A stretch of 64,000 nt of DNA from Siphonodentalium dalli. Lineage: Eukaryota > Mollusca > Scaphopoda > Gadilida > Siphonodentaliidae. Position 1 is the first letter of the stretch. Every line of letters starts with the position of its first letter. Shown here in pieces: positions 12,456 through 62,816 of the stretch. The stretch spans positions 121,215,989 through 121,279,988 of the forward strand of contig CP136068.1 in NCBI GenBank assembly GCA_032622095.1, in the 5' to 3' direction. Made by a program: the position numbers and the translations under genes. Below the pieces are notes generated by a model. That model did not search any database. It saw only the letters and a list, made by a program, of their open reading frames with translations, and had not been told where the DNA came from.

Positions 12456-12457
12456 TA

Positions 12458-13224: not shown

Positions 13225-13228
13225 TTAA

Positions 13229-13611: not shown

Positions 13612-13628
13612 TTAAGTAGTTTCCGGAA

Positions 13629-13811: not shown

Positions 13812-13897
13812 TTCAACTAGGGAAGCAAAAACATCTTCAAGTTGCGTTTGTTATGAGATTGAAGACCAGTCATCGTAGTACATATAATTTTTTTTAG

Positions 13898-14992: not shown

Positions 14993-15030
14993 GTTTAAAT
15001 ACAAATTAACCAGTGACTTCCAAAACACAT

Positions 15031-15415
15031 CGCAAAAGATAATGTGGTCATCCCTAGGTAGCCAAAAGATAATGTGGTCATCTGTAGGTAGCCAAAGGAT
15101 AATGTGGTCATCTGTAGGTAGCCAAAAGATAATGTGGTCATCTGTAGGTAGCCAAAAGATAATGTGGTCATCTGTAGGTAGCCAAAAGATAATGTGGTCA
15201 TCCGTAGGTAGCGATAATGTGGTCATCTGTAGGTAGCCAAAAGATAATGTGGTCATCGGTAGGTAGCCAAAAGATAATGTGGTCATCTGTAGGTAGCCAA
15301 AAGATAATGTGGTCATCTGTAGGTAGCCAAAAGATAATGTGGTCATCGGTAGGTAGCCAAAAGATAATGTGGTCATCTGTAGGTAGCCAAAAGATAATGT
15401 GGTCATCTGTAGGTA
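15031..15415 (+). repeat. Minisatellite, 30-bp unit, 13 copies
   Basis: The unit GCCAAAAGATAATGTGGTCA+TCTGTAGGTA repeats in head-to-tail register. Six units of 30 bp, one 25-bp unit missing CAAAA (15211-15235), and six more follow. The only variants are CTG/CGG/CCG/CCC near the end of the unit. Copies are almost identical, suggesting recent expansion. Confidence 0.9.
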
Positions 15416-15426
15416 GCCAGGCCTCA

Positions 15427-15550
15427 GAATATGGTGCTGATCGTTTGCAGAATGAGGTATCCAGAGGGTAAATTTAGTGACACTACCTCGCACAGCAGGC
15501 TAGAATCTCCAAATTCATCCTCTGGGAACCTCATTTCTGAATGACCTTAT
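15427..15550. repeat. Fragment of hAT-type hairpin element
   Basis: One hairpin (GCAGAATGAGGTATCCAGAG ... CCTCTGGGAACCTCAT) matches family HB. The same flanking CCTCA(G/A)AATATGGTGCTG phrase precedes the fragment at 6515. Confidence 0.55.
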
Positions 15551-16023
15551 CTGTATAAATAATGTAGACAAGTGACTTCCATGGGGTTTGTTATAGGTTG
15601 ATTGAACTGTCTTACTGTCACTTTACAGTCATCTTTAACATGGCACAGCTAGATAGAAATTCAATGCAACATAGCACAAACCCTCCATGAGAATGACTTG
15701 CCTATGTCATGACTTTCCTCAATAAACACAAGTAGTTCCAATGGATGCTTATGGAGAGTAACATTGTTATATATTATGTGGTGACTTTTGCAGTTGTATG
15801 TCATGAGACATCAAAATTAAGAACGGTAAACACCGATTTGATTCGATGTCGATATCAGAAAGGAGATTCGATATCAATATTCGATTTGATACAAAACCCC
15901 CAATTTGCAGATCATATGGTGTTCTTATACCAATTTATATATATATAAAAGAGTAATTTAGGATAAGCTTAGAAAAAGATTAGGAACAGGTATGTCTGTC
16001 TGTCTGGATTTTTCTCCCACTTT
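15551..16023. other. Intronic sequence before the satellite
   Basis: No gene or assignable repeat was seen. A short TCTGTCTGTCTG run lies at about 15994-16006, just before the satellite begins. Confidence 0.4.
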
Positions 16024-19000: not shown

Positions 19001-21881
19001 GGTGGGCGGGCCACCTTATACATATTATTTATGTGGGCAGTAGCATTAGTCTCCAGCGCCTGTGGCGCATAAGATACTATGGGAGGTGGGTTCAGTCTGC
19101 TTCCTCGGTGGACAAATCTAGGGGCGCATAATATACTATGGGTGATGGGATGGGGTGGTGGGCGGGCCACCTTATACATATTATTTATGTGGGCAGTAGT
19201 ATTAGTCTCCAGCGCCTGTAGCGCACAATATACTATGGGTGATGGGATGGGGTGGTGGGCGGGCCACCTTATACATATTATTTATGTGGGCAGTAGTATT
19301 AGTCTCCAGCGCCTGTAGCGCATAATATACTATGGGTGATGGGATGGGGTGGTGGGCGGGCCACCTTATACATATTATTTATGTGGGCAGTAGTATTAGT
19401 CTCCAGCGCCTGTAGCGCATAATATACTATGGGTGATGGGATGGGGTGGTGGGCGGGCCACCTTATACATATTATTTATGTGGGCAGTAGTATTAGTCTC
19501 CAGCGCCTGTAGCGCATAATATACTATGGGTGATGGGATGGGGTGGTGGGCGGGGCCACCTTATACATATTATTTATGTGGGCAGTAGTATTAGTCTCCA
19601 GCGCCTGTAGCGCATAATATACTATGGGTGATGGGATGGGGTGGTGGGCGGGCCACCTTATACATATTATTTATGTGGGCAGTAGTATTAGTCTCCAGCG
19701 CCTGTAGCGCATAATATACTATGGGTGATGGGATGGGGTGGTGGGCGGGCCACCTTATACATATTATTTATGTGGGCAGTAGCATTAGTCTCCAGCGCCT
19801 GTGGCGCATAAGATACTATGGGAGGTGGATTCAGTCTGCTTCCTCGGTGGACAAATCTAGGGGCGCCTGCGGCGCATAATATACTATGGGTGATGGGATG
19901 GTGGGCGGGCCACCTTATACATATTATTTATGTGGGCAGTAGTATTAGTCTCCAGCGCCTGTGGCGCATAATATACTATGGGAGGTGGGTTCAGTCTGCT
20001 TCCTCGGTGGACAAATCTAGGGGCGCCTGTGGCGCATAATATACTATGGTTGATGGGATGGGGTGGTGGGCGGACCACCTTATACATATTATTTATGTGG
20101 GCAGTAGCATTAGTCTCCAGCGCCTGTGGCACATAAGATACTATGGGAGGTGGGTTCAGTCTGCTTCCTCGGTGGACAAATCTAGGGGCGCATGTGGCGC
20201 ATAATATACTATGGGTGATGGGATGGGGTGGTGGGCGGGCCACCTTATACATATTATTTATGTGGGCAGTAGTATTAGTCTCCAGCGCCTGTAGCGCATA
20301 ATATACTATGGGTGATGGGATGGGGTGGTGGGCGGGCCACCTTATACATATTATTTATGTGGGCAGTAGTATTAGTCTCCAGCGCCTGTAGCGCATAATA
20401 TAATATGGGTGATGGGATGGGGTGGTGGGCGGGCCACCTTATACATATTATTTATGTGGGCAGTAGTATTAGTCTCCAGCGCCTGTAGCGCATAATATAC
20501 TATGGGTGATGGGATGGGGTGGTGGGCGGGCCACCTTATACATATTATTTATGTGGGCAGTAGTATTAGTCTCCAGCGCCTGTAGCGCATAATATACTAT
20601 GGGTGATGGGATGGGGTGGTGGGCGGGCCACCTTATACATATTTATGTGGGCAGTAGCATTAGTCTCCAGCGCCTGTGGCGCATAAGATACTATGGGAGG
20701 TGGGTTCAGTCTGCTTCCTCGGTGGACAAATCTAGGGGCGCCTGCGGCGCATAATATACTAAGGGTGATGGGATGGGATGGTGGGCGGGCCACCTTATAC
20801 ATATTATTTATGTGGGCAGTAGCATTAGTCTCCAGCGCCTGTGGCGCATAAGATACTATGGGAGGTGGGTTCAGTCTGCTTCCTCGGTGGACAAATCTAG
20901 GGGCGCCTGTGGCGCATAATATACTATGGGTGATGGGATGGGATGGTGGGCGGGCCACCCTATACATATTATTTATGTGGGCAGTAGTATTAGTCTCCAG
21001 CGCCTGTGGCGCATAAGATACTATGGGAGGTGGGTTCAGTCTGCTTCCTCGGAGGACAAATCTAGGGGCGCCTGTGGCGCATAATATACTATGGGTGATG
21101 GGATGGGATGGTGGGCGGGCCACCCTATACATATTATTTATGTGGGCAGTAGCATTAGTCTCCAGTGCCTGTGGCGCATAAGATACTATGGGAGGTGGGT
21201 TCAGTCTGCTTCCTCGGTGGACAAATCTAGGGGCGCCTGCGGCGCATAATATACTATGGGTGATGGGATGGGGTGGTGGGCGGGCCACCTTATACATATT
21301 ATTTATGTGGGCAGTAGCATTAGTCTCCAGCGCCTGTGGCGCATAAGATACTATGGGAGGTGGGTTCAGTCTGCTTCCTCGGTGGACAAATCTAGGGGCG
21401 CATAATATACTATGGGTGATGGGATGGTGGGCGGGCCACCTTATACATATTATTTATGTGGGCAGTAGTATTAGTCTCCAGCGCCTGTGGCGCATAATAT
21501 ACTATGGGAGGTGGGTTCAGTCTGCTTCCTCGGTGGACAAATCTAGGGGCGCCTGTGGCGCATAATATACTATGGTTGATGGGGTGGTGGGCGGACCACC
21601 TTATACATATTATTTATGTGGGAAGTAGCATTAGTCTCCAGCGCCTGTGGCACATAAGATACTATGGGAGGTGGGTTCAGTCTGCTTCCTCGGTGGACAA
21701 ATCTAGGGGCGCCTGCGGCGCATAATATACTATGGGTAATGGGATGGGGTGGTGGGCGGACCACCTTATACATATTATTTATGTGGGCAGTAGCATTAGT
21801 CTCCAGCGCCTGTGGCACATAAGATACTATGGGAGGTGGGTTCAGTCTGCTTCCTCGGTGGACAAATCTAGGGGCGCCTGT
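16024..21881 (+). repeat. Satellite array of 165-bp and 97-bp units
   Basis: A 5.9-kb tandem array. The long unit is 165 bp and contains an internal direct repeat GCGCCTGTGGCGCATAA, whose copies are 68 bp apart. The short unit is 97 bp, exactly 165-68. Short units come in runs of six (17775-18356), six (19170-19752, one with an extra G) and four (20243-20630), plus a single one at 16191-16287. I estimate about 25 long units. Shared private variants (e.g. CCTCGGAGGAC at 17372, 18776 and 21050; ATT deletions at 16948, 18357 and 20631) reveal higher-order duplications of about 1.4 and 2.27 kb. Confidence 0.95.
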
Positions 21882-22426
21882 GTATATACCAAAGTTCAAA
21901 CCCCATAAACCCCTTTCGTTGGTGCAAACAGACAAGCTGATTACAGTATACACCGCTCCCCACCACAACTCAGGAGGGGGTCTGTGGATTAACATTGAAT
22001 AATAATCAAGTAGGTCACAAACTATGAGGTGATGACTATGCTCACGGAGCAAACATGTCAGCCTCAAAATCAATCGATTCGGAAAGGTTTAAATTTTTTC
22101 ACATTCGTTTTAGTTCAAAATAAGTTGTGACGAAAAATTTCTCATGTCAGTAATGAATATAAGGTAGCTAAATTGGGTGCATAGATGAACACAGATAATT
22201 CAAGCATTTATTTCTGATTTCTTTGATTAATATGAATCTGTACCAGTAACTCACCTTAGAATCCAAATGCCTGTATGATCAAACCTTGTTTTATAAAATT
22301 AATCTTAGGCCAGAATAGACCAATGTGGCACATACATCAGCATATTATTTTCAAAACTCAAATAATATTTTTTATTTGACCTTATTTATTTACACATGGA
22401 CTTCAGGCACAAGTTTTTGCAACTTT
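21882..22426. other. Intronic sequence after the satellite
   Basis: No exon or known repeat was identified. The stretch just after the array has no match to the sequence before it. Confidence 0.35.
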
Positions 22427-25008: not shown

Positions 25009-25221
25009 TGGAAGCGGAGCGAACTGCAATTACATTGCGATGATCATCGGACCTCAGCAGATGTTCTAAAGTATAGCGTTTCGTCTGAAGGAAATAATCA
25101 GCGTTCAGAGCCTGTATGCAACCAGGAAAAACAATAGCGTTCAGCGACAGTGTCCTTCAGAAATAGACAATCAGTGTTTGGTGATAGTGTTCTTCAAGAC
25201 TGCTCAGCATAAATAGACATT

Positions 25222-28200
25222 ATGGCGACCTCAATTAACTACAAGATACCACCAGTGTTTTCAGCACAGAAACCATATTCTCGCTGGGTTGACGAAGTTA
25301 AAGCGTGGGAAACACTGACAGATTTGGACAAGAAAAAGAGAGCCGTAGCTATAGCGTTGTCGCTTCCTGAGGAAGGATCAGTGAGAGACAAGGTGTTTAG
25401 TGAAATGAGCATAACCATTCTTAATGCAGATGATGGTGTGGAAAAACTGATAACATTCTTAGATGGACTTTTCAAAAAGGATGCCCTAAGTGAAGCTTAC
25501 GAAGCATATACTGAATTTGATCGTTTCAGACGAAGCAAAGTAGCGACAATGGGAGAATATGTAATTGAATTTGAGAAGCTGTACAACAGGACGAAAAAGT
25601 TTAAAATGGAACTTCCCCAACCAGTTGTTGCATTCAAGCTGTTAGAATGTTCAGAACTCAAAATGAAAGACAGACAGTTAGTGCTGACGGGAGTGGACTA
25701 CTCTGCTGAAAATACATTGTTCCAACAGATGATAAGTTCTCTAAGAAAAATTTTCGGAGAGCAAGCTGCATCGCGACAGGATGGATCTGTTGGCATTAAA
25801 GTAGAGCCAGCATGCTTCACTGCGGAGGAGGTGAATTATTCAGACAGACAGTATAACAATCAGAGAAATTGGGGGCAGAGAGGTAATCGAGGGAGAGCAG
25901 GTGAATTTCGAGGACAGTCGTATCAGAGCGATCAGAGGAACAGTGGTTTTCGAGGACAGTCATATAGCGGTGTTCAGAGGAATAGTGGTTTTCGGGGACA
26001 GTCCTATAGTGGTGATCAGAGAAACAGTGAGTTTCGAGGACAGTTATATCGTGGTGATCAGAGGAATAGTGATTTTCGTGATAAGGGCGTAGGCGTGAAT
26101 AAACTGAACAAGGCCATCAATCCAAACGGCCCTGATGGTCTACCTCTACGATGTCTAAGCTGTGATTCGATCAGGCATTTGGTTAGAGGGTGTCCTCATT
26201 CATATGAAAATATGAATCGAAAGACTGTGGAAAAAGCTGTGTTATTCACTGGTAATGTGCACTCGAAAGAAACTCTTGTCCTTTTGACTGAATCTGCAAA
26301 TTCAGCAGTATTAGATAGTGCGTGTACGTCTACAGTTGCCGGAAAGACATGGATGGACTGTTATCTGGATTCCCTTGAATCCTCAGTTAGGGACAAAATA
26401 GTGCATGCTGTGAGTGACACTCTATTCAAATTTGGGGGCGGAACAGTTCTCAAATCTCTTGGCAAAGTTACATTTCCTTGTGCGATAGCAGGCGAAGAGT
26501 GTGAAATTACAGCTGACATAGTTGAGAGTGAAATTCCCCTGCTGTTAAGTAAAGACTCGATGAAAAGAGCCAAGGTGAAGTTGGATCTTGAGAATGACAG
26601 TGCAAATATCTTTGGGAAAGACATTCAGTTACAGAGCACATCGTCGGGACACTATTGTGTTTCTATTGATCAGATTAGTGTTAGCGTTGATGATACAACC
26701 TCTGCACTGATAGCGACTAGACAATCTGATGACAAATCCAAAGTCATTGAGAAATTGCACAAACAATTTGCGCACCCCTCTTCCAAACGTCTAAAGACTC
26801 TCATGAAGGATGCCGGCGGTTACACAGAGGAACATCTCAAGTGTGTTGATGAGGTGACTGAAGCATGTGATGTCTGTCGGCGCTATAAGAAGACTCCAGC
26901 TAGACCAACTGTTTCACTCCCATTGGCAAGTGAATTTAATGAAGTTGTTGCCATCGACTTAAAGCAGTGGAGAACTGGCGTGTATTTTCTGCATATGATA
27001 TACATGGCCACAAGATTTAGTTTAGCTGCTATAATCAACAGGAAGACACCAGAGGTTATAACTGGAAAACTCATGACCCACTGGATTGGAAGTGGTATGG
27101 GTCCACCTAAGAGGTTTCTTGCAGATAATGGTGGAGAGTTTGCGAATGAAATTTTTCGTGATATGTGCGGAAATCTTAACATTGAAGTCATCAATACAGC
27201 AGCGTACAGCCCTTGGCAAAATGGAATATGTGAACGCAATCATGCAGTTGTAGATGATTGTGTGGCTAAGATTCTAGAAGATCAACCGAACTTGGACTTA
27301 GAAGTTGCATTGGTATGGGCGGTGAATGCGAAGAACAGTTTGTCCATGGTGTATGGTTGGAGCCCTTACCAATTAGTGTTTGGCGCTAATCCTAACTTGC
27401 CTAGTGTGTTGACAGATATGCCTCCAGCACTAGAGAATACGACTATCAGTGAAACATTTGCCAAACATCTAAATGCACTACAGTCGGGTCGGCGTGGATT
27501 TATACAAGCTGAATCGTCTGACAGAATCAGAAGAGCATTACGTCATAAGATTAGATCATCAGGCGAGTGTTTTCAACAAGTTGACAAAGTGTATTATAAG
27601 AGAGATGACGACAAGAGATGGAAAGGACCTGGAGCTGTGATCGGGCAAGACGGAAAAGTGGTGTTTGTGCGACACGGGAGTATATATGTGAGAGTTCACC
27701 CATGTAGACTGATCAGGTGTGGCCCAGAAAAGGAAGTGTCTTCTGATGAAAAAAAAAGACAGTTTGATGAAACTAAAGATTCTAGTGCTGTACATATCGA
27801 TGATGGAGAGTTTACAGACGAAGATCGGGAGATTAGTGGAAACAAAGTTAATAGAAGATCAGATGATGACATTCAGCATGGAGATAGGAGGAATGCAGCA
27901 AATGTGCAGCTAGATAATGTTGGAGAACCAAGTGGCAGTCAACCAGAAATGCATGTAGGAGATACCAGGACAAAGGATCCCAGTGTAAAAGATATTCCAA
28001 AAGTCGGAGAAATTATAGCATACAGATTAAGAGGAAGTAATGAATGGATGAAGGCCAAAGTATTAAGTAAAGGAGGAAAAGCAACTGGAAAAAATTGGGC
28101 TTACATGAATATACAGGAAGAAGATAAAGATGTAATGGCTGGAATAGATTTCATGAAAGATGTCGATGAGTGGAAAAAGGTGGATGTGATAGATGAAGTG

Positions 28201-29727
28201 AATGCTGTTTTTATTCCGGTGTCAAGGCACGATGAAGAAAATGTAAGAAATGCTAAACAGTTAGAGCTTGATAACTGGAAATCATTCCATGTGTATGAAG
28301 AAGTTCCTTACAAAGATCAGAAGGTAATGTCAACAAGATGGGTGATCACAGAGAAAGAAAATGGTGGTAAGCGGGTAGTCAAAGCACGGTTAGTGGCCAG
28401 AGGCTTCGAGGAGGAAACCGATGTCCAGAGTGATTCTCCCACAGCACACAAAGAAAGCATTCGATTGTTTCTGGCATTAGCTTCTACATGTCAGTTTACT
28501 GTTCATTCTATAGACGTGAAGGCAGCGTTTCTGCAGGGAGACGAAATTGATAGAGATATTTATGTTCAACCTCCAAAGGAATGTATTTCAAAGGAATCTG
28601 TCATATGGAAATTACAAAAGTGTGTATATGGCCTTGTGGATGCTTCCAGGAATTGGTTCTTAAGCATGAAAAAAGAATTGAATAGACTCTCATGTGTGCA
28701 GTCCAAACTCGATCCAGCGTTGTTTCTCTGGCAGGGAGAAGGTATGTTTTTAATGCATGTTGATGACATTCTGTGGACTGGCAGTGATTTATTCAAAACG
28801 AAAGTGATTGATTGCATTACCAAAAGATTCAGATGTGGGAAGGAAATGGACAGTTGTTTTCGGTACATTGGTTTAGACATTGAGCAAGATAGTGAGGCAG
28901 TGTATCTTCAGCAGCACATGTATACAGAGGAATTGAAACAAGTGCAACATGCAGTGAATACTAAAGGGAATGAGAGAGGTGTGTATATGGAGATTGTTGG
29001 ACAGATGCACTGGCTAGCATCACAAAGTCGACCAGATTTGTCTTTTGATGTGCTGGATCTTACTACTTCAAGTGAAATTAGTGACTCAAAATTTCGGCAG
29101 AAACTCAACAAAGTCGTAAGGAAAGCAAGAAACAATGTGTACAAGTTTGTATTTCCACAACTTGGTAATTTGGACAAACTGGAGTTGGTTCTTTACACAG
29201 ATGCTTCGTATGCAAACTTGTCTGACAGGATTTCCAGTGCAGGAGGATATATCATATTTCTGAAAGGCGGTAATGGGAGATGTTGTCCTATCTCTTGGGC
29301 AGCAAAAAAGATAAGAAGGGTGGTCAAGAGTACGCTAGCGGCGGAAGCACTTTCTCTCGTGGATGGACTTGATGCTTGTTATTTTGTGAGAAGCGTTCTG
29401 CAAGAAATGATTAATAAGAAAGGAGCTTCAGACACACATGTTCCAATAACGTGTCTGGTTGACAATAAATCTCTGTGTCAGAATGTGCATTCCACAAAAC
29501 TCATATCTGAAAAACGTCTTCGACTGGATTTGGCTAGTATCAAAGAAAGTGTAAACAAGGAAGATGTTTCAGTGAAATGGATAAAAACTGGACAACAAAT
29601 AGCTGATTGCTTAACGAAAGGAGGAGCAGACTTCCATCCACTTATCGAGATGATACACAACGGAAAGAAGAGACTTTCTAAAACTTTTCTTAAAGATTGG
29701 ACAGGATGGTGTTGTGATGGATCCTAA
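25222..29727 (+). CDS. gag-pol: Copia gag-pol polyprotein
   Basis: Intact 1,501-codon polyprotein for copying and integrating the element. Gag has four to five FRGQSYSGDQRNSG-like repeats (about residues 228-288) and a CCHC zinc knuckle at 311-324 (CX2CX4HX4C). The aspartic protease motif is D365-S-A. Integrase has an HHCC finger (H513, H518, C549, C552), catalytic D579, D635 and E671 (D-55-D-35-E), and a WKGPG module at 800-804. Reverse transcriptase has LVARGF, D1098 in DVKAAFL and HVDD at 1179-1182 (usual YVDD). RNase H has D1327, E1375 and D1414, and the chain ends near ADCLTK. The order PR-IN-RT-RH is the copia order. The start is the first ATG, 213 nt after the LTR. No stops or frameshifts, so it is probably autonomous. 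Confidence 0.95.
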   Translation: MATSINYKIPPVFSAQKPYSRWVDEVKAWETLTDLDKKKRAVAIALSLPEEGSVRDKVFSEMSITILNADDGVEKLITFLDGLFKKDALSEAYEAYTEFDRFRRSKVATMGEYVIEFEKLYNRTKKFKMELPQPVVAFKLLECSELKMKDRQLVLTGVDYSAENTLFQQMISSLRKIFGEQAASRQDGSVGIKVEPACFTAEEVNYSDRQYNNQRNWGQRGNRGRAGEFRGQSYQSDQRNSGFRGQSYSGVQRNSGFRGQSYSGDQRNSEFRGQLYRGDQRNSDFRDKGVGVNKLNKAINPNGPDGLPLRCLSCDSIRHLVRGCPHSYENMNRKTVEKAVLFTGNVHSKETLVLLTESANSAVLDSACTSTVAGKTWMDCYLDSLESSVRDKIVHAVSDTLFKFGGGTVLKSLGKVTFPCAIAGEECEITADIVESEIPLLLSKDSMKRAKVKLDLENDSANIFGKDIQLQSTSSGHYCVSIDQISVSVDDTTSALIATRQSDDKSKVIEKLHKQFAHPSSKRLKTLMKDAGGYTEEHLKCVDEVTEACDVCRRYKKTPARPTVSLPLASEFNEVVAIDLKQWRTGVYFLHMIYMATRFSLAAIINRKTPEVITGKLMTHWIGSGMGPPKRFLADNGGEFANEIFRDMCGNLNIEVINTAAYSPWQNGICERNHAVVDDCVAKILEDQPNLDLEVALVWAVNAKNSLSMVYGWSPYQLVFGANPNLPSVLTDMPPALENTTISETFAKHLNALQSGRRGFIQAESSDRIRRALRHKIRSSGECFQQVDKVYYKRDDDKRWKGPGAVIGQDGKVVFVRHGSIYVRVHPCRLIRCGPEKEVSSDEKKRQFDETKDSSAVHIDDGEFTDEDREISGNKVNRRSDDDIQHGDRRNAANVQLDNVGEPSGSQPEMHVGDTRTKDPSVKDIPKVGEIIAYRLRGSNEWMKAKVLSKGGKATGKNWAYMNIQEEDKDVMAGIDFMKDVDEWKKVDVIDEVNAVFIPVSRHDEENVRNAKQLELDNWKSFHVYEEVPYKDQKVMSTRWVITEKENGGKRVVKARLVARGFEEETDVQSDSPTAHKESIRLFLALASTCQFTVHSIDVKAAFLQGDEIDRDIYVQPPKECISKESVIWKLQKCVYGLVDASRNWFLSMKKELNRLSCVQSKLDPALFLWQGEGMFLMHVDDILWTGSDLFKTKVIDCITKRFRCGKEMDSCFRYIGLDIEQDSEAVYLQQHMYTEELKQVQHAVNTKGNERGVYMEIVGQMHWLASQSRPDLSFDVLDLTTSSEISDSKFRQKLNKVVRKARNNVYKFVFPQLGNLDKLELVLYTDASYANLSDRISSAGGYIIFLKGGNGRCCPISWAAKKIRRVVKSTLAAEALSLVDGLDACYFVRSVLQEMINKKGASDTHVPITCLVDNKSLCQNVHSTKLISEKRLRLDLASIKESVNKEDVSVKWIKTGQQIADCLTKGGADFHPLIEMIHNGKKRLSKTFLKDWTGWCCDGS

Positions 29728-35889: not shown

Positions 35890-37280
35890 TGACCAATATG
35901 CGCACAAACCGACGATGTAAACACGATAAACAAGCAAGCATCATGAGTATAGGCATAGGTCTATAGACTGTTGCTAACTGTGACTACATGTATAAATATT
36001 ATAAGTATGATCAGCTTCTTTCATTGTGGAAACACGCGGTCGAAAAAGTTTTAAAACATCAGAGCATGTGCTTGTCAAGTTGGCTACACTTCGTCGGAAA
36101 CATCAAATCGCTAGCACCAGTTGGATACATTGTGAGATGATTGGTATGTTGCGCGCTGCATGCGAGTGGCACAATGACCTCATTTCAAGTTGGTGCTGCT
36201 TGCTCTGTCAACCGTAACCGGTTGCTTGGAGACAGATTACCATGTTATATTTTATATTGCCCACTAGCTGATTGTGTCAATGTGTGCAAGTCGCGAGTAA
36301 AATGATTTTGTGGACATGTGTCGTGTGGCCCAATTGTGGAATTAATATAAAATGCGAGCCTAAAACGAATCGTGGCATTGCTAGTGCTTCAACAAACGTC
36401 CATTTCACTTCCTAATTGAACATGTCATCATTTATTTGCCTCGGCTAAAAAAATGCCGACGCAAATTCATTTCACGTCGGCTTTTGCCTCGCACTGCCGA
36501 TTGCCGATGTTAATTCCCAGAGCTGAAATCTTATGGACAGACAGATGGATGGACAGAAAATGTTTGTTTTGGGGGCATAAAAATCATTCTTATCTGGTAA
36601 AAATTATCGGACAAATTCCCAATTCGAAAGCAGATTGTGTTTTGAGCCAATTCATACTGAGTTTGGTGGTGATCAGGCAACCATAACTGGAATTAAGAGT
36701 ATCAAAAAGACCAGAAAACCCAAATTTCATAGTTACAAAAAATGTGCACTCTGAACAGTAAATGTCACTGGATTTTGCAATTATTTACTCAAGAAAGATA
36801 TTTCGATGATATGATTCTGTGAGATAATTATTAATGATATGTCCGATTGATAGATAATTGTCAGATTTTTTAACTATATCACAAAGAATTTGGTTACGCT
36901 ATTCTTATGACAACAACATTCTTCCCGACTTATCAGATTCATGTGTTCTGTTGTGCCGAGACTGTCACCATATAAACTTAATCTGTATAGAATCTCAGAA
37001 TGAGTAATCTTCTTAGTGAATTTTTTTTTATATGACCGCTTTAACTAAAATTACAAAACGCAGCTCATTTTCAAAGTGTTGGCACTGTACAGCCTTGATG
37101 ATATTGATTGATTGAAAGATTGTTTATTTGAATAATAATTACAAGCTTATGAGAATAGTGATAATAAAAAAAATTGTGATATATTGTGCAGGACTGGCAT
37201 GCCCTAAATGGGCAGTCTTCCTGTCGCCCCTCAGACTTTGTTCATTCATTTGTGCATGTGAATGTTCAAATAAAATTTGT
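35890..37280. other. Intronic sequence with a weak repeat trace
   Basis: GGACAGACAGATGGATGGAC followed by GGGGGCATAAAA at about 36536-36583 resembles the end of a tandem-core element like 2862-3263. Nothing else was recognised and no exon fits. Confidence 0.35.
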
Positions 37281-37289
37281 TGGTAAACA

Positions 37290-38245
37290 TGATTAAGCTA
37301 AATTTTACTCATTCTGGCAACGATCCGAGTAACCCCATGGAACGTACCCAGCGATTTGATCAACGAAACAAGAGCATCACTAGGATGTGGCAAAATACAC
37401 CCATGGTAATTCCAACAAAGGGCCATAACTCTAGTGCAAAATTGGCGAGCGGAACTAAATTCATACTTGACCTGTATTTTAGTCAACTCACATACTAAAT
37501 TTCATTCCATTCAGTTTAGACTTAAGTTATGATCCGGAAAAAAAAATTGAGTGCAAATTCCAACAAAAAGGGCAATAACTCTGGTGAGAATAAAGCCTGC
37601 AAACAAGGGGTCGGACACAGTCATTGACCGAAGCAAAACACCTAAATGTCCTGTACCAATCTATTTGCAAATGTCGTCTCTGGCAGCATTTGTGTGACAA
37701 GCTTGTTTTTAAAATCGTGCATGTTTTCAAACTAGTAACCCACGTGTTTGATTTATTTTCATAATTAAATTTAGCAACTAGCAACGGTCCATTTGACATG
37801 GAATTCATACAGTGTATCAAGCCTTTGATGATTTTGATCAGGTTGTTCAATACTGAACAAGTATAAACAAGGTCACAGATGGTAAAACCATAACAGAATG
37901 CAATACTACTGACATTATACTGGGATACATTTGTTTTGAAAGTGTAAATGAAGCTGGGTTTACATTTAAAATCCATGACAGGTACTGAACTTGATATGAC
38001 AGGCACCAATCAGTTGGTGCCTGTCATAGTGTCAGGCACACTCTGGGAAATTTTAAGAAATTATTTGCAGGCTTGGTGAGAATTGGCAGGCGGAAAACAG
38101 ATTCCAACATTACCTTTATTTTGGGCTAGTAAAATAACATACAAAATTTCATTCCATTCAGTTCAGACTTACTAAAATTAACATCTGAAAACGAAAAAAA
38201 AAAAATGGATGGACAGACAGACGAACCAATAACATAATATGTTGC
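37290..38245. repeat. Decayed Helitron-like tandem-core element, interrupted
   Basis: Three partial core copies share (GGGC)CATAACTCT.GT and AATTTCATTCCATTCAGTT (37415-37525, 37555-37600, 38080-38175). They are followed by ATGGATGGACAGACAGACG at 38205-38223. The middle (37605-38035) is unrelated sequence that ends in a TTGGTGCCTGTCATAGTGTC stretch, inverted to TGACAGGCACCAA next to it. Boundaries are approximate. Confidence 0.45.
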
Positions 38246-39512
38246 CATTCAATTGTAGATTATATGAGGTAATATGACTGGCCTGGTAACAACCATACAA
38301 TTATAATCCTGTATATCATCATCTCACAGTCTGCATCTAAATGAAATTCAATTTAACTTTATATTGGAAAACTTTGAGCGATTTCCTCATCACTCGTTTC
38401 CCAACTGTAAATTGACTTCATCTAGATTGCTGTCATATGATCTTATTTACTACAGGATTAGCTCATCACATGCAGTACGGCCTATTGTTTAGAGTACAGA
38501 GCCATAACCATGCCTATTCTGTGATTACTGTGTTTGCCGAACTTGACCAGATAGCAACACTTATTTATTCACATTGATATACAAGTATTACATTAATTTT
38601 AAGTTCAGAGGAAGACCTCCAAGCTCAAATGTATTTATGTTTTACGATGTTTTATTTATAGGTTTACCAATAATTGAGCCATTAATGTTACGGGGTGGCT
38701 CAATAGTAGATGATCAGACAGGGTACAACGTACCTGTCGCGCTAGAATGGTGCAAACTTAGCCAGATTAGAATGATGGCACAGTGCCTTTACAAATTTTC
38801 AACAAAACATAGAAGAATATATAGATAAGGATATTTTAGTTTCTAGTCCATATGATCCCCCCCCCATTCTTCCCTCCTTACAAATAGGACATATAACATT
38901 CCAGATCAATTTTAACCATTATCAATTATCATATTACTACAATGGTACATCATGCATTAGTGCCTATTGTTTAAAGTCCAGAGACATAACCATGCATATT
39001 CTTTTTACCGGTATTGGTGCCTCTTTGCTACCTTCGTTTGTCATACAGTAGTGTGTGACTTCATCATTAATGTTCAAGTCAAGTCAAATTGATAGTCCTT
39101 ATCTTTTTAGAAACGGAATAATATTAATATTAGAATGTTACATTAGCCTTTCATCATCAGACTACGCATGCGCCGTTTTACTACAGTCATAGTAAAACTC
39201 CTTATTTCACATGAGACGTAATTCTCCATGTTAGAAGAAAATACAAACTAGATTAAAATTATGATACTGTGTAAGCAAAAAAAATTCATGCACTATACAT
39301 GTTCTGCCCAATTATTACCCAATGAGCACACATGTACATGTACATTTAATGTTGAATACATACCGGGTATAGGAGAATGAGATTATAAGGTTTTTTTATC
39401 AGTTTAATTGGTTAGACAAGTGACGACGATATGCAGTTTAAAATTACTTACCCGTAATATTTATTGCCTTTTGCAGTAAGTGATTGATTGGTCATCAGCG
39501 ACAATCTGTAAT
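38246..39512. other. Intronic sequence, nothing recognised
   Basis: No exon with acceptable splice sites and phase, and no shared repeat. Confidence 0.35.
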
Positions 39513-40599
39513 CAGGGCCAAAGCTAGGGGTTGAAAGCAGGTTCTATGGAGATTTTAGGGAGACTTCAGTCCAAAATAGGGAGACGTGGGGAGACTTAAG
39601 AAAAACATAAGAAACAACTAGGCCAAATAAAAAATATTACTTGAATCTCAGACCACTACGCATTGAAATAAATGGCCTGCATTAGACAATTGTATTTTGA
39701 TTTTTGATATTCTGTCCAAAAAAAATAAGTAAAAAAAAATATTAAAATAAAAAAAAATATTTTGTTTGTTTTTACCAACATGTCCATACGTATTGAGCAT
39801 TAATTGCAACATACATGAACTCTTAACATATCTATGTCACCGCGATGAAGAGTGCATGACCGTTCACCTCAAAATAAGGTCTACACCAACGAAATGTTTA
39901 ATTACAAATAAAAACAATTAAAATATTAATAGTTGTTATCAGGGTATTTATTCCCTATCCAATTAATAAATAAAATATTATCATTACAAGAATCCAACAT
40001 GAGACCATCTCCATTTGAGGAAGGGCTTTTGATTAAACACCACATTGTTTTGAACGGTACTCTAAATAGGAAATCATGCATAACAGCACGTGTCATGTGG
40101 TAACATAGGTTTACTGCTAGCGTACATTGACAAAGTGTGACATTTTCTTTGATGTCAGCTTATTGATAAAATGTCATTGTAGCCACTGGTTGAACTGTAA
40201 ACAGCGTGAATACTGGTGAATAGCGGTCATTATGTTGAATAGTGGTTGTTGATTAATGAACAATGGGGATGTTGTAAACCCATTGTATGTTATATATAAT
40301 TGGTTTCGGCCGGTTATTTTACATAATCATTTCATTTCATTCGATGTATAATAACTGTTACTTGATATTCTTAAGACTGCAAATAGATCGGGGCGGGATG
40401 GAGAGATAGAACAAAAACATTATGACAGATATATTTTAATATAATTTTTTGCAAAACAAGTCAAATTTCCACTGGTAAATCCAAGGCAAGTTTGGTCAAA
40501 TCCGCAAGGTGACTTTTTTTGCCTTGCGGACATCCGAGGACAAAGTCACTGGCTCAAAGGCGATAATTTCGCTCCAGTCGCCTCCTAGATTGGAGCCTG
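39513..40599. mobile_element. Degraded hAT-like element
   Basis: The ends CAGGGCCAAAGCTAGG and CCTAGATTGGAGCCTG are imperfect inverted repeats. Candidate target duplications TCTGTAAT (39505-39512) and TCTACAAT (40600-40607) match at 6 of 8 bases. The interior has no open transposase frame. Confidence 0.5.
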
Positions 40600-40772
40600 T
40601 CTACAATTAATTTTGATTGGAGATCTAGCTCCTGTTTGAAATAATTTTTTTGATCAATAAAACAAGACTCAACACTGAAAATACATGAACAAAACCATAA
40701 ATTTTGTCTGATATTTTTAGCACAGAGACAAAACCCAAAATAAATTGATCAACAAAAAAACAAGAACATTAT

Positions 40773-40844
40773 TTAGAATTCAGGAAAGCTTTTGACGTAA
40801 TCATCCAGTCCTTCCCAGAAGACGGGAGCAACAACATTCGCATA
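40773..40844 (-). CDS. Candidate alternative terminal exon
   Basis: After an AG (TTGTAG) a phase-0 frame reads YANVVAPVFWEGLDDYVKS and then FPEF and a stop. The composition is protein-like and the phase would fit directly after exon 44689-44621. The polypyrimidine tract is poor and no polyadenylation signal is obvious. This is a low-confidence suggestion of an alternative 3' end or of another gene. Confidence 0.2.
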   Translation of the reverse strand, partial: YANVVAPVFWEGLDDYVKSFPEF

Positions 40845-41005
40845 CTACAATTTGCTCTCATAATTCTTTCAAAATGCTTTTGTGGATTGTGATAATTACA
40901 CAAATATTGAACTATTTACCGGTAGTATTATTATAAATCCTATTCAGTCTAAATTTAGTTATGGAAATGTGAAAATATAATTGCACTCTTAAGATAGTGC
41001 CTTAA

Positions 41006-41409
41006 CCCTTTCAGTAAAATCGGCCCTAAAATTATTTTGTTTTAGATTTTTTTGGGTTCAATGTTTTTGGGTGTGTTTAAGCATGCTATAGCGAATTTAA
41101 AAACAAACTGGATAAAACCTTAGGGGCATGTTATAACTCAAAACTATCACCAAGTATTCATAGTAATAATTTTGATGCCCATGAAAAACGTAAGATTCCT
41201 TGGCACTAAACCTACAAAATATGTCTATTAAAGAATATAAGAAAAAATTATTAAAATTGTAAAAAATAATAACAAATGATGAAAAATTGTTAGGCCAATG
41301 CATTCTCTTATATATGCGAGGCGACCTATGGTCGACTCGCATATATAAGAGAATGCATTGGCACAGTGTATACGGGTTGATACAAAAATCGGACCTGGCA
41401 CTGAAAGGG
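41006..41409. mobile_element. TTAA-flanked single-hairpin element (family P2), uninterrupted
   Basis: TTAA lies at 41002-41005 and 41410-41413. The left end CCCTTTCAGT has lost the GCCAGG part. The interior from TTGGGTTCAATG to AATGATGAAAAATTGTTAGG is collinear with 8895-9165 plus 11547-11686. It therefore shows the empty site of the Helitron-like insertion there. Confidence 0.8.
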
Positions 41410-41451
41410 TTAATGTTGACTAGAAACTGCAATTATTTTCACTCAAATTAA

Positions 41452-41698
41452 CCCTTTCATGCTGATGCAGCATTAAAGATCATGTGCCAGTGCATTCTCT
41501 TATATATGTGAGTATCCCATATGGAGCCTTGCATATATACGAGAATGCACTGGCTTACAAAGTCAAGTTAAATATTGTTAGGCCAATGCATTCTCTTATA
41601 TATGCAAGGCTCCCTTAGTATGGGAGACTCGCACATATAAGAGAATGTATTGGCAAAGGGTTTTCACAAAATTTCAGGAAGTGCCCATCATGAAAGGG
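41452..41698. mobile_element. TTAA-flanked double-hairpin element (family P3)
   Basis: TTAA lies at 41448-41451 and 41699-41702. The ends are CCCTTTCATG / CATGAAAGGG. Two hairpins are separated by CTTACAAAGTCAAG. Confidence 0.8.
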
Positions 41699-41798
41699 TT
41701 AAGACAGAACAGAAGGGTCAGCAACCAGCCCTCAATGTGAGATTGAATGTTCAAAGTCCGTCTGAGCATATTTTTCTTGCATTATCCCCTGATGACAC

Positions 41799-42262
41799 AC
41801 AAGCCAAAGTTTAGTGTGTCTGTCATTTGCAGAATGAGGTCCCCAGAGGGTGAATTTAGTGATGCCATCCAGCACAGCAGGCTAGCATCACCAAATTCAC
41901 CCTCTGGGGACCTCATTCTGCATGGCCTCATCTGATATGGGAGACAGTGTCACAGATTGATGTTCCCAAATGGTGAATATTGTGATGTACACCCATTGGG
42001 AACCACGATTATGCAATTTGTCGTCAGCCAATTTGCGGATATAGAGAAACTAAACTAATAAAGAAATAGAATCTAAGTGAAGAAGTTTCTATAGAAATTT
42101 TATAATAAAGAAACTTTCCAGAGAAGATGATACCTAAGCAGAATGAGGTCCACAGAGGGTGAATTTAGTGATGCTAGCCAACTATGTGGGATAGTGTCAC
42201 TAAATTCACCCTATGGGGACCTCATTCTGGAAATGACAGGCACACTATAAAACTCAGACTTG
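41799..42262. mobile_element. Long hAT-type hairpin element (family HB, long form)
   Basis: Flanked by an 8-bp direct repeat GATGACAC (41791-41798, 42263-42270). The ends are CAAGCCAAAGTTTAGTG / CACTATAAAACTCAGACTTG. Two hairpins flank a spacer of about 190 bp. This is the reference for the fragments at 683, 3266, 54600 and 55065. Confidence 0.8.
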
Positions 42263-42833
42263 GATGACACCGAAGAAAAAAAACAACTAATTATTATACA
42301 ACGTGAGCAAATAATTGCTCTTGTTGTGTTTTCATTGTAGAAAGGACTGATCATCAATCCAACGGAGCACAAAAAAACCTGTATGAATTTACTTCCTACT
42401 TCCGGTATAGAACTATGGGTGTTCAATTCACTGTCGAAATCATCACCATCTGATTAGTCAATGTCATAAAGTACATGCGCTGGATATCAAATGATAGCAA
42501 CATTTCACATTTCATGTGATATATTTATGTGCAGTAATCATTGCAATATCAAGGATTAATGGACGATGGATGAAAAGTGATGGACATAGAACACTTGATA
42601 AATAATGTCAGGTGATCTAAAAGTTAATAACAAATAAATAGTACTTACATTTCAGCCTGATTTACCAACATGATCGTATTACAATTTGAACCAATCACAA
42701 AATGTTGGTTTGTATAGAGTAGGAATGTCTCACAAAAAACATTGTACTTTCACACAAACAACTCAAGAGAAGGACATTTTCACAAACAAAGTACAATTTT
42801 TTTTTAGACAATTCTATATCAAGAGAAATGTAC

Positions 42834-43019
42834 ATTAGTTCCCTAAATAACGACTCCTAACCACAGCAGAATTACAGGAAATTTTTCAGGATTTAGTTGG
42901 AAATATGGCTTGTTGCCATTCATCGGAAAGCTCTCACTGAACAAGCCATATTTCCGACTAAATCCTGAAAATTAACCATAATTATGTGGTTAAGGAGTCG
43001 ATTATTTAGGACATAAATG
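42834..43019. mobile_element. Foldback element (family FB), shortened
   Basis: The arms GGATTTAGTTGGAAATATGG and its complement are present. The terminal CAGTAATG is decayed and the centre partly deleted. Confidence 0.65.
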
Positions 43020-43176
43020 TATCTGCTAGAATCTCATCCAATTCACCACCCATTCACAGAGGAATATAAAAAGAATTCTGTTATTATCAAATCCATATTT
43101 ACTGCTTGTTAATGCCATTTGTGGCATCTCTGAACTAGAAAAATCAAAATAATGAACTTCTCGTGCTATATATTAA

Positions 43177-43554
43177 CCTTTACCCAACAGAACGGCCCTG
43201 TGCCAATGCATTCTCTTATATATGCGAGTCGACCATAGGTCGCCTCGCATATATAAGAGAATGCATTGGCTTAACAAATTAAAAATTATAAAATTGTTAA
43301 AGAATGTAAGAAAAAATGGTAAAAAAAGATTTTTTTAGGCCAATGCATTCTCTTATATATGAGGCGACCTATGGTCGACTCGCATATATAAGAGAATGCA
43401 TTGGCACAGGGCATAACCGTAACCATCACAATGTGGTCAATGAGCCGGTTCCAATGATATCCATATTTGTATGGTTTTATTGAGACAGACCCAAGATAAT
43501 TTAGGCTGTTGCAGCTTTATTTGGCCGTTTTTGGCCGGTTTGTTGGGTAAAGGG
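43177..43554. mobile_element. TTAA-flanked double-hairpin element (family P1)
   Basis: TTAA lies at 43173-43176 and 43555-43558. The ends are CCTTTACCCAACAG / TTGTTGGGTAAAGGG. Both hairpins are present; the second has lost GC in one arm. Confidence 0.8.
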
Positions 43555-43558
43555 TTAA

Positions 43559-43653
43559 GCCAATGCATTCTCTTATATATGGGAGGCGACCTATGGTCGA
43601 CTCGCATATATAAGAGAATGCATTGGAACAGGGCCGTTCTGTTTGGTAAAGGG
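43559..43653. repeat. Partial P1 element (one hairpin and one end)
   Basis: It continues from the shared TTAA with GCCAATGCATTC... and ends TTCTGTTTGGTAAAGGG before TTAA (43654-43657). It looks like the right remainder of an older P1 copy into whose internal TTAA the neighbouring P1 inserted. Confidence 0.6.
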
Positions 43654-43657
43654 TTAA

Positions 43658-43773
43658 CCACAGCAGAATTATGGGTAACTTTTCAGGATTTAGTCGGAAA
43701 TATGGCTTGTTGCCATTCATCGGAAAGCCATATTTCCGACTAAATCCTGAAAAGTTACCCATAATTCTGCTTA
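43658..43773. repeat. Truncated foldback element (family FB)
   Basis: It begins at the TTAA followed by CCACAGCAGAATTATGGG and folds back to CCCATAATTCTGC. The outermost CAGTAATG ends are missing on both sides. Confidence 0.65.
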
Positions 43774-44035
43774 ACTATTTTTATCTTTTTGGTTATTGTA
43801 TTCTTGTGTAATGGTAGATAAAATACTATCTATGTATGATGCGCACATAAATAAAAGTCAACTCTAACAAATTAGATTCAAGCTCAAATTTGTTTTGACT
43901 AATCGACAGATTTCAGGATCGATTTATTCAATAATCAAGTCAACGTCGATTAGTCAGCTAACAGTTTCAACACTGATGACATTCTAGAAATTTGTTCATT
44001 TTGGCCTGAACAAACGCTCTGAGGATAACTTTAAG

Positions 44036-44620
44036 TCCCTATGAATTCTTTCACACAATCCACTCAATATTAAAGTAAAGTTTATGAATAATTAACTCAC
44101 TCCTTGTTAATGCTTTCACACATTCCACTTAATATAAATGTAAAGTTTATGAATAATTAACTCACTCCTTGTTAATACTTTCACACATTCCACTTAATAT
44201 AAATGTAAAGTTTATAAATAAGTAAATCACTCCTTGTTAATGCTTTCACACATTCCACTTAATATAAATGTAAAGTTTATGAATAATTAACTCACTCCTT
44301 GTTAATACTTTCACACATTCCACTTAATATAAATGTAAAGTTTATAAATAATTAACTCACTCCTTGTTAATGCTTTCACACATTCCACTTAATATAAATG
44401 TAAAGTTTATGAATAATTAACTCACTCCTTGTTAATGCTTTCACACATTCCACTTAATATAAATGTAAAGTTTATGAATAATTAACTCACTCCTTGTTAA
44501 TGCTTTCACACATTCCACTTAATATAAATGTAAAGTTTATAAATAAGTAAATCACTCCTTGTTAATACTTTCACACAATCCACTTAATATCAAGGTAAAG
44601 TTTATGAATAATTTACTCAC
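44036..44620 (-). repeat. 65-bp tandem array starting at the splice donor
   Basis: Nine units in exact 65-bp register. On the gene strand the first unit begins with the donor GTGAGTAAATTATTC of exon 44689-44621 (G at 44620). The following units begin at 44555, 44490, 44425, 44360, 44295, 44230, 44165 and 44100. Six of these eight downstream units keep GTGAGTTAATTATT; two (44555, 44230) read GTGATTTACTTATT. The array thus multiplies the 5' splice site inside intron 6. Confidence 0.9.
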
Positions 44621-44689
44621 ATCTTTGTGCTTCTTCCCTTCGAGATGCCCTCGGAATGCCACTGGTCCAGTACAAGTAATGTTACAAAC
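44621..44689 (-). CDS. Zinc-finger gene, exon completing finger 3
   Basis: The acceptor CTTTTTTTCAG and donor GTGAGT enclose 69 nt, phase 0 to phase 0, 23 codons: VCNITCTGPVAFRGHLEGKK + HKD. Joined to the preceding exon end FCD, it forms CDVC...H...H, a CX2CX12HX5H finger ending HLEGKKHK. That signature is the clearest mark of the U1/dsRNA-binding (JAZ/ZFR-like) finger type. A 65-bp tandem array begins at the first intron base after this exon and repeats its donor. Confidence 0.9.
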
Positions 44690-46374: not shown

Positions 46375-46541
46375 GTCACAGAACTGATCAAAACTGCCGA
46401 CAGGACCAATATCCTCCGGGTCAAGATCTCTCGAGCCAAGAGGGACCCCTTTCCTCGCCCGAGAAGCCCGCCTCTCGTCAATTGAATCATCAATAGCCAT
46501 CGCCTTGTCAATTCTCTCGGCAATGGCATTCCGTCTCTCTG
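46375..46541 (-). CDS. Zinc-finger gene, exon with basic-acidic linker and start of finger 3
   Basis: The acceptor is GAATGTTTCCAG and the donor GTGAGT. The exon is 167 nt, phase 1 to 0, 55 codons after completing an Ala codon. The peptide begins ERRNAIAERIDKAMAIDD, a predicted charged helix. It continues with RRASRARKGVPLGSRDLDPE and ends DQFCD, giving the first cysteine of finger 3 (C639 in the chain). The intron cuts finger 3 between its two cysteines, unlike fingers 1 and 2, which are cut before the first histidine. Confidence 0.85.
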
Positions 46542-49631: not shown

Positions 49632-49761
49632 CAGCTTCTTTCTCTTCAGCTTCTTTCTCCTCAGATGAATCGTCTGATACCTCGACAGGTTTACTGGCTT
49701 GGGTGCCTAATCTCATTACATTCTGAGTATGTAGAACAGTTCGACTGTGCCTATAGTAGGC
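49632..49761 (-). CDS. Zinc-finger gene, exon completing finger 2
   Basis: The acceptor TATTTTAAG is followed by a 130-nt exon (phase 0 to 1, 43 codons). The donor GTTTGT is the weakest in the model. The peptide begins AYYRHSRTVLHTQNVM, supplying both histidines (H546, H552) of finger 2, and then becomes acidic (SDDSSEEKEAEEKEA). Its first 16 residues match those of exon 57036-56919 at 13 positions, and the length and phases are the same type. The two exons therefore derive from a duplication. Confidence 0.85.
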
Positions 49762-51495: not shown

Positions 51496-51671
51496 ATTAT
51501 TGTCAGCAAATTTGAGGTTACATATTGTACATTCCGTATCATCATCTTCACTGTCTTCATCATCTTCGTCCACTGTTGGTTCCACAGACGACTCAGCACT
51601 CTTTGACTCCTGAGAAGAATTTACCTGTTTTGTTTTGTCCTTGGCAACGGATGATGATTGTTTAGGGTCAG
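51496..51671 (-). CDS. Zinc-finger gene, exon with acidic run and start of finger 2
   Basis: The acceptor CCAATTTAG and donor GTGAGT enclose 176 nt (phase 1 to 0; 58 codons after a split Ala). The peptide begins DPKQSSSVAKDKTKQVNSSQ and passes into the acidic run DEDDEDSEDDDTE. It ends CTICNLKFADNN, giving C530 and C533 of finger 2. The arrangement of an acidic run followed directly by CxxC and the exon end repeats that of exon 62519-61189 (DDSDDEDTTHCAVC). This is evidence for duplication of the exon pair. Confidence 0.9.
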
Positions 51672-56918: not shown

Positions 56919-57036
56919 CTATTTTCATGACACTGGGGTAAGCTACTTTCCTCTTCGGGGCTTCAATTTCCATTCCAGATTCCTTCTTCATTACATTTTG
57001 TGTGTGCAGAACACTTCTAATATGCCTAAAATAAGC
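56919..57036 (-). CDS. Zinc-finger gene, exon completing finger 1
   Basis: The acceptor TTATTGTTTCTTGCAG and donor GTTAGT enclose 118 nt (phase 0 to 1, 39 codons). The peptide begins AYFRHIRSVLHTQNVMKK, giving H448 and H454 of finger 1. It continues with MEIEAPKRKVAYPSVMKI. It is paralogous to exon 49761-49632 over the first 16 residues. A short tandem array begins exactly at the last intron base before this exon, and a foldback element ends 15 bp after it. Confidence 0.85.
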
Positions 57037-57288
57037 CTGCAAGAAACAATAAGTGAATTGTAACTGCATTGATGAAACAATAAGTGAATTGTAACTGCAT
57101 TGCTGAAATAATAGTAAGTGAATTGTAACCATTGATGGAACAGTAAGTGAATTGTAACCGTTGATGAAACAGTACATGTAAGTGAATTTTAACTGCATTG
57201 ATGAAACAGTAAGTGAATTGTAACCGTCGATGAAACAGAAAGTGAATTTTAACCGCGTTGATGAATTTTAGCCACATTGATGAAACAG
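57037..57288 (-). repeat. ~31-bp tandem array anchored at the splice acceptor
   Basis: On the gene strand the units read (TTACAATTCACTTATTGTTT)C(ATCAA)TGCAG. The last one is the real acceptor of exon 57036-56919. About eight units of 27-35 bp are present. At least three upstream units end in CAG; the rest end in CGG or TGG. The array multiplies the pyrimidine tract and AG of the 3' splice site. Confidence 0.8.
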
Positions 57289-61188: not shown

Positions 61189-62519
61189 ATCATTAGAGAC
61201 AAAATCCACGTTACACACAGCACAATGAGTGGTGTCTTCATCATCACTGTCATCCTCTTCCTCATATTTCTTCACATCCGCTTCATCTTTCTTCACATCC
61301 CCTTCATCTTTCTTCACATCCCCTTCATCTTTCTTCACATCCCCCTCATCTTTCTTCACGTAAACTTCGTCTTTCTTCACGTCCTCCTCATCTTTCTTCA
61401 CATCCTCCTCAACTTTCTTCACATCCTCCTCATCTTTCTTCACATCCTCCTCATCTTTCTTCACATCCTCCTCATCTTTCTTCACATCCTCCTCATCATT
61501 CTTCACATCCTCCTCATCTTTCTTCACATCCTCCTCATCTTTCTCCACATCCTCCACATCTCTCCTCACATCCTTGTTTTCTTGCACATCTTCCTTGTTT
61601 TCCTGCACACCCTCATTGTTTTCTCGCACTTCCTCCTTGTTTTCCTGAACATCCTCCTTGATTTCCTGCACTTCCTCCTTGTTATTTTCATTGCCCATTG
61701 CTTCCTCCCCATTTTGTCCATGATCAGCTTTATTACCATTGGAATCAAAATCTTTCTGTTGATGATAATCTGAATCGCTTTCTTCTGGATAGCCGTCCAT
61801 TTCATTGCCAACACAATAGCCATCCATGTCGTTTTCTTCTTCTACTTTTTGTTCTTCTTCTTGATACCAATCCATTTCATCTGCTCCTTGGCTATTTCCC
61901 TTTTCCTGTCCTTGGTAGTTTCCCATTTTACTCTCTTCTTTGTAGTTTCCCATTTCCTGTCTTTGATAGTTTCCCATTTTATACCCTTCTTGGTAGTGTC
62001 CCTTTTCCTCTCCTTGATAATTTCCCATTTTACTCCCTTGGTAGATACCCATTTGCTGTCCTTGATAGTTTCCCATTTTACTCCCTCCTTGATAGTTTCC
62101 CATTTTACTCCCTCCTTGATAGTTTCCCATTTTACTCCCTCCTTGATAGTTTCCCATTCCCTGTCCTTGGTAGTTTCCAATTTCATGTCCTTGATAGTTT
62201 CCCATTTCACTTGTGCCTTGATAGTTTCCCATTTTATTTCTTTCTTGGTACTTTCCCATTTCACTTGTGCCTTGGTAGTTTCCCATTTCACTTGTGCCTT
62301 GGTAGTTTCCCATTTCACTGCCATATTGATAGTTTCCCATCTCACTTCCTCCTTGGTAGCTTTCCGTCTCATTCCACGACCCACCTGATTGTGGCTGTTG
62401 AAACCCTGACATATTGTGTTGATAACTATTCATTGTATCACCCATTGCTCCATTATCATACTGGTTACCAGTGGTATGCCTTCCATTGTTGCCCCTTCCA
62501 CCATACATAATCTGATCAC
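61189..62519 (-). CDS. Zinc-finger gene, large repeat-coding exon with start of finger 1
   Basis: The acceptor TTTTATTTCAG and donor GTAAGT enclose 1,331 nt: two bases of a split Gly codon plus 443 codons, ending in phase 0. The N-part (DQIMYGGRGNN...) is Gly/Asn/Gln-rich. About residues 55-260 are 9-10-residue repeats of the type GGSKMGNYQ / GTSEMGNYQ. An acidic stretch follows, then KEDVQENKE repeats and some twenty KKDEEDV heptads of coiled-coil-like charge. The exon ends DDSDDEDTTHCAVCNVDFV.., giving C432 and C435. Low-complexity RG/NYQ regions next to fingers are common in RNA-binding proteins. The other strand is also open here because of the repeat periodicity; splice sites and finger homology favour the minus strand. 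Confidence 0.9.
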
Positions 62520-62552
62520 CTGAAATAAAATGTAAACTGAATATCGTGTTAA

Positions 62553-62816
62553 CCCTTTCATGATGGGAGCTATGGTGGCACGCATTATAGATCCCATGCC
62601 AGTGCATTCTCTTATATATACGAGTCTCCCATATATATATATATATATATATATATAAATTTAAGAGAATGCACTGGCTTACAAGGTCAAGGTAAATATT
62701 GTTAGGCCAATGTATTCTCATATATATGTGAGGCTCCCTATGGGACTCACATATATAAGAGACTGCATTGGCAAAGGGTTTTCGCAAAATTTCAGGACGC
62801 TCCAGTCATGGAAGGG
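62553..62816. mobile_element. P3 double-hairpin element near exon acceptor
   Basis: TTAA lies at 62549-62552 and TTAG at 62817-62820. The ends are CCCTTTCATGATGGGAGC / GCTCCAGTCATGGAAGGG. The first hairpin loop has become an (AT)n run at 62631-62655. It lies about 30 bp upstream of the acceptor of exon 62519-61189, so it may contain the branch point region. Confidence 0.75.

Follow-up and report, generated by a model that had tools for sequence, protein, structure and literature searches.

Nine tandem 65-bp units occupy the 5' end of an intron, the first of them beginning exactly at the 5' splice site of a predicted coding exon in a zinc-finger gene. We consider it likely, with a probability of about 0.8, that this array is a locally born, homogenised, and probably tolerated intronic minisatellite that resembles the mirages of lancelets and whose first unit contains the working donor. 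Positions are those of the window, i.e., the whole stretch of 64,000 nucleotides that was analysed, and the exons of the gene model are denoted E1 to E6. The features are as follows (basis in parentheses).

61189..62577, minus strand: exon E1, 3' boundary known from its GTAAGT donor and start set arbitrarily (spliced model)
57037..57271, minus strand: second array, made up of eight 19-35 bp pieces and reaching the E2 3' splice site (Tandem Repeats Finder, lag matches)
56919..57036, minus strand: exon E2 (spliced model)
51496..51671, minus strand: exon E3, with a C2H2 finger completed by E4 (spliced model, Pfam)
49632..49761, minus strand: exon E4, weak donor GTTTGT (spliced model)
46375..46541, minus strand: exon E5, ending in ...FDQFCD and holding the first cysteine of the finger (spliced model, Pfam)
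44621..44689, minus strand: exon E6, VCNITCTGPVAFRGHLEGKKHKD, second part of the zf-met finger, phase 0 at both ends (Pfam, spliced model)
44615..44620, minus strand: GTGAGT at the start of unit 1, presumably the 5' splice site in use (donor scoring)
44552..44554, minus strand: in-frame TGA (intron nt 67-69) within the GTGATT of unit 2 (frame reading from the exon)
44036..44620, minus strand: nine 65-bp tandem units (script, Tandem Repeats Finder, lag matches)

Gene model and structure of the two arrays

The six exons (62577-61189, 57036-56919, 51671-51496, 49761-49632, 46541-46375, and 44689-44621) can be spliced into a single frame free of stops, with AG at the end of all five acceptors and GT at the start of all six donors; where E1 begins was set arbitrarily in this model, and E4 has a weak donor. 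When spliced, the model matches zf-met (E = 6.4e-15), with the best stretch crossing the join of E5 and E6, and zf-C2H2_4 (1.8e-7), with the best stretch crossing the join of E3 and E4. Joining the exons restores zinc fingers that are split by introns (zf-met across 46375/44689), and E6 alone matches zf-met (PF12874) with E = 6.8e-8. E6 is thus well supported as a predicted coding exon, and its end is placed at 44621 because of the donor, the completed zinc finger, and the stop downstream.

Pfam searches for an exon after the array recovered no families on the minus strand at 36036-44035 and one weak match only (TMEM254, E = 0.05) on the same strand at 8200-17400. A zinc-finger-like open stretch at 8440-8302 (minus strand), with an acceptor, a GTAAGT donor, and a weak zf-U1 match (E = 0.038), may belong to the same gene as a later exon; it was kept out of the exon model, the link being unproven. 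A genome search for paralogues of E5-E6 gave six matches, of which two are the locus itself and four are weak (identities of 38, 39, 33, and 56%, with E no better than 0.09), and therefore yielded no paralogous intron for comparison.

Other elements were observed in the window. E1 contains coding tandem repeats of 21-bp units (61259-61683; VKKDEED-like repeats) and of 27/54-bp units (61872-62365; MGNYQG-like repeats). A 1504-aa open frame at 25213-29727 (plus strand) resembles, as judged by eye, a Copia-type retrotransposon polyprotein, and a 5.6-kb array of 97/165-bp units (16233-21882) includes several minus-strand open frames. Rfam returned no matches over the whole window at gathering thresholds.

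A preliminary description had reported nine 65-bp units in register with unit 1 at the start of the intron, and a script run on the window bore this out, finding the units free of indels from 44620 to 44036. From unit 1 to unit 9, departures from the consensus number 5, 3, 0, 0, 2, 0, 4, 0, and 8, such that units 3, 4, 6, and 8 are identical to it and the two end units are the most diverged, the interior being identical or nearly so. Tandem Repeats Finder calls the array at 44044-44628 (period 65, 9.0 copies, 94% matches). Its left edge is sharp: the two exon bases adjacent to the donor mismatch at lags of 65 and 130, and matches at these lags farther up the exon are sporadic. GT is present in all nine units and GTGAGT in seven (units 1, 3, 4, 5, 6, 8, and 9), units 2 and 7 having GTGATT, which agrees with the earlier count of six intact donors among the eight downstream copies. 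Searching the 2.23-Gb genome with a dimer of the unit gave five matches, all within the array itself; the absence of further matches does not establish that the unit is rare. That the unit was detected at no other locus favours the minisatellite reading.

Two inverted repeats adjoin the array at 43560-43765, and the motif GATTTAGTCGGAAATATGGC of one of them reappears in an array at one locus of the survey described below (L031), and a repeat at another (L051) has part of it. A search for GTGAGT pairs spaced 20 bp apart was uninformative: the pattern matched 563 and 751 times, its reversed control 1258 and 756 times.

The second array in the same gene comprises eight pieces that run from 57271 up to the acceptor of E2. 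Over its first 21 bases the last piece is identical to the unit TTACAATTCACTTATTGTTTCATCAATGCAG, and once four gap bases are allowed its end, TGCAG, falls at the acceptor; of the seven pieces before it, three end in ATGCAG. This hexamer carries little weight by itself, because six of 100 EGF acceptors agree with ATGCAG at no fewer than five of the six sites; Tandem Repeats Finder stops the array at 57043, six bases before the exon. Two splice sites of the zf-met gene, the E6 donor and the E2 acceptor, have an array at the edge, a coincidence that counts against the minisatellite reading.

Arrays at the edges of other exons

From the genome we sampled 100 EGF_CA and 80 LDLa exons, each together with 450-500 bp of flanking sequence at either end. 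The EGF_CA exons were 100 of 150 listed, taken from the top down, with exons in open frames of 932-3334 aa and those ranked below the last one taken left out; the LDLa exons were 80 of 150 listed, with near-duplicates, long open frames, and those ranked below the last one taken left out, together with one exon (C9:74750861) left out with no reason given. Donors and acceptors were called with a generic weight matrix, not one trained on this genome, and one locus (L077) was without a donor call, such that 180 loci yielded 179 donors. Some stretches overlap (e.g., L023/L064, L082/L083, L105/L110, and L108/L112), and an array in these was possibly counted twice. The sample represents two domain families; kinase exons were excluded because one tandem cluster dominates their list. 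That cluster, on contig C2 at ~149.83-150.60 Mb, holds about 95 of the 135 matches to kinases, many with equal score and a 281-aa open frame. Sets of LDLa exons with equal scores are mirrored on opposite strands of contig C4 (264.50-264.58 and 265.15-265.24 Mb), reflecting either inverted duplication of a large segment or a duplicate introduced by assembly. No match was obtained for the mollusc haemocyanin domain; this does not indicate that the domain is absent.

The called donor lies inside an array at nine of the 179 donors, and at one more an array begins just after it. Eight of the nine belong to the EGF set of 100 (L091, L045, L086, L062, L043, L073, L074, and L095), as does the locus where the array starts 2 bp past the donor (L069); L129 is the only LDLa exon with a donor array, and its donor call is weak. 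Relative to the donor, these arrays start at -94, -50, -50, -16, -15, -10, -5, -5, -5, and +2, with none at 0. The exact start of the E6 array is one point within this scatter and, because sampled starts range from -94 to +2, needs no mechanism acting at the exon border. Accordingly, the earlier claim that the array lies exactly at the donor and multiplies a plausible donor stands, but exactness does not imply that duplication began at the exon border. Nor is the array singular, since exon-edge arrays occur elsewhere in this genome and in lancelets. Similar donor arrays at other exons count in favour of the minisatellite reading.

In the stretches fetched, GT is present in 16/16 copies at L043, 11/11 at L062, 10/10 at L073, 8/10 at L074, 7/7 at L095, and 3/3 at L091, and at the donor-equivalent place in just 1/12 copies at L069. 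At L045 the script recognised a single copy, versus 2.0 copies by Tandem Repeats Finder. Three of the arrays (L073, L074, and L095) have one common unit and are related copies, which reduces the number of independent cases; that of L095 ends at 6.4 copies and those of L073 and L074 reach 9.8, running off the stretch, a difference that fits a change in copy number. Overall, 61 arrays were found in 46 of 100 EGF stretches versus 20 in 19 of 80 LDLa stretches, suggesting that such arrays are concentrated in some genes.

Around the 179 donors, seven array starts fall between -16 and +2, whereas 20 background windows of 19 bp located deeper in the intron average 1.5 (Poisson p = 0.0009); the E6 array supplies one more, at 0. 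This density is poorly predicted by random placement and weighs against the minisatellite reading. It raises the alternative that the 5' splice site is a mutational hot spot that, via transcription or splicing, promotes duplication at or near the exon end. However, the p value becomes 0.019 once L073, L074, and L095 are collapsed (with the background uncollapsed) and about 0.07, by hand arithmetic, when the weakly called L129 is also omitted. Moreover, one background window contains six starts, acceptors have no excess (one array start against a background of 1.5), and the sample is confined to two domain families. We regard the enrichment of array starts at donors as a hint and no proof, and a hot spot as unlikely.

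Alternatively, the duplicated segment may at first have held the last exon bases, with the exon part since diverged or lost, such that the exact start would be a product of erosion. Exon bases are often included in the sampled arrays (e.g., those of L062, L043, and L091), and the exon tail ACAAAGAT resembles the unit end ACAAGGA when one gap is allowed. That likeness is weak, however, being equalled at 5.25% of 2000 random positions, and copies 2-9 are all preceded by an identical CAAGGA, with only unit 9's own end differing. Such a history is, in our judgement, quite improbable.

Donor copies and their predicted coding consequences

Scored with a generic weight matrix and a generic U1 end, unit 1 is the best of the nine donors (7.8), followed by units 3, 4, 5, 6, 8, and 9 (6.3) and by units 2 and 7 (2.2); the corresponding predicted U1 duplexes are -7.1, -6.5, and -2.9 kcal/mol. 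Reading on from E6, the TGA inside the GTGA of unit 2 is in frame, and therefore each of units 3-9, if used as a donor, would give a stop-containing product. Unit 2 is the sole downstream copy that would avoid this TGA, and its use, through a weak GTGATT, would add a frameshifting extension of 65 nt. The earlier expectation that the frame would be kept whenever the number of added units is a multiple of three fails on this stop.

Under the minisatellite reading, the first 65 intron bases would have been duplicated in tandem at the E6 locus, with the 5' splice site taken into the unit. The array may then have grown while its interior was homogenised via unequal exchange or slippage, with the end units left diverged. 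The copy adjacent to the exon would have stayed the working donor, and the other copies would be cryptic donors whose use would shift the frame in the case of unit 2 and end translation early in the case of units 3-9; the array is therefore probably tolerated, and presumably near-neutral, rather than used.

A use for the copies can nevertheless be envisaged, either as U1 sites that guard a long intron against premature polyadenylation, U1 protection of introns being known (PMC5499120), or as poison donors that lower expression via stop-containing transcripts. At six of the eight downstream copies U1 is predicted to pair almost as well as at unit 1, and a stop would result from units 3-9, both points in favour of such a use. 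However, the 65-bp array was found at the E6 locus only, and donor bases are not preserved over the rest of the unit: among downstream copies pooled from six arrays (of 11 whose copies were examined), donor bases (-3 to +6) depart at 44/513 sites versus 131/2076 in the rest of the unit (p = 0.077), the direction being that of faster donor decay. In the E6 array the counts are 2/72 versus 13/448. L074 alone has 24/81 versus 29/355, and the pool without it has 20/432 versus 102/1721 (hand arithmetic). Donor bases depart less at L043 (3/135 versus 13/300) and L062 (3/90 versus 28/362), the direction expected from selection and a point against the minisatellite reading. In the pool, then, nothing indicates that the copies have been retained for U1 binding, L043 and L062 being the two arrays with a leaning in that direction. 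Pooled donor bases are no more conserved than other bases of the unit, which is consistent with a minisatellite, and we give a working role for the copies very little credence.

Misassembly of a shorter array, for which several identical 65-bp units would be hard for short reads, is extremely improbable given private changes that distinguish the units and a nine-contig assembly with contigs of 190-300 Mb, which suggests long reads.

Significance and comparison with lancelet mirages

Should a 5' splice site promote tandem duplication after all, with donor arrays seeded at exon ends that grow and turn over, a proposal we hold to be improbable, it would point to splicing- or transcription-linked mutation, longer introns, and raw material for exons outside lancelets. 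Multiplied splice sites are also a natural test of how the spliceosome chooses among near-identical donors, and boundary duplications a test of whether introns and exons can originate in this way. The sampled EGF-type genes of this genome, with the donor in an array at eight of 100 exons, provide enough cases to study as a class; the lancelet genes named in the available portions of the mirage literature are few, too few for such a study. The E6 array itself is an ordinary, well-preserved example.

Mirages are said to have been originally described in a paper on lancelet Adh. Lancelet genomes comprise ~0.5 Gb in 17-20 chromosomes; the genome considered here comprises 2.23 Gb in nine contigs and is therefore probably that of another kind of animal. 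As characterised in the available portion of one source, mirages of lancelet globin genes are tandem arrays at, and spanning, the exon-intron boundary, with a homogenised interior and diverged ends, and the units of the Adh3 mirage are 10-72 bp (PMC3087553). Length instability between alleles or cells and undisturbed regular splicing also belong to the definition.

Much of this description applies here. Unit 1 lies at the E6 donor and hence at an exon-intron boundary, the splice signal GTGAGT is carried by many but not all copies (7/9), homogenisation has affected interior units (3, 4, 6, and 8 being identical) and spared those at the boundary, and both 5' and 3' edges are affected within the gene. 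The 65-bp unit also falls inside the size range given for Adh3. Unlike mirages as described in that portion of the source, the unit has no clear exon part but only the weak gapped similarity noted above, and this difference counts against a minisatellite of the mirage kind. Because the behaviour is similar and a clear exon part is lacking, we place the E6 array beside mirages as a variant.

A further parallel is provided by lancelet PGBD5, in which imperfect repeats, 60 and 108 bp long, are reported to overlap splice sites or to coincide with them (PMC3902484). Coincidence of repeats with splice sites is common to both cases; the gene differs, the animal is probably of another kind, and the PGBD5 repeats are imperfect. 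Among the titles and abstract openings surveyed, which covered few subscription journals, such arrays were not recognised outside lancelets. Set against these known systems, the E6 array clearly illustrates a peculiarity that is little known but has been described before.
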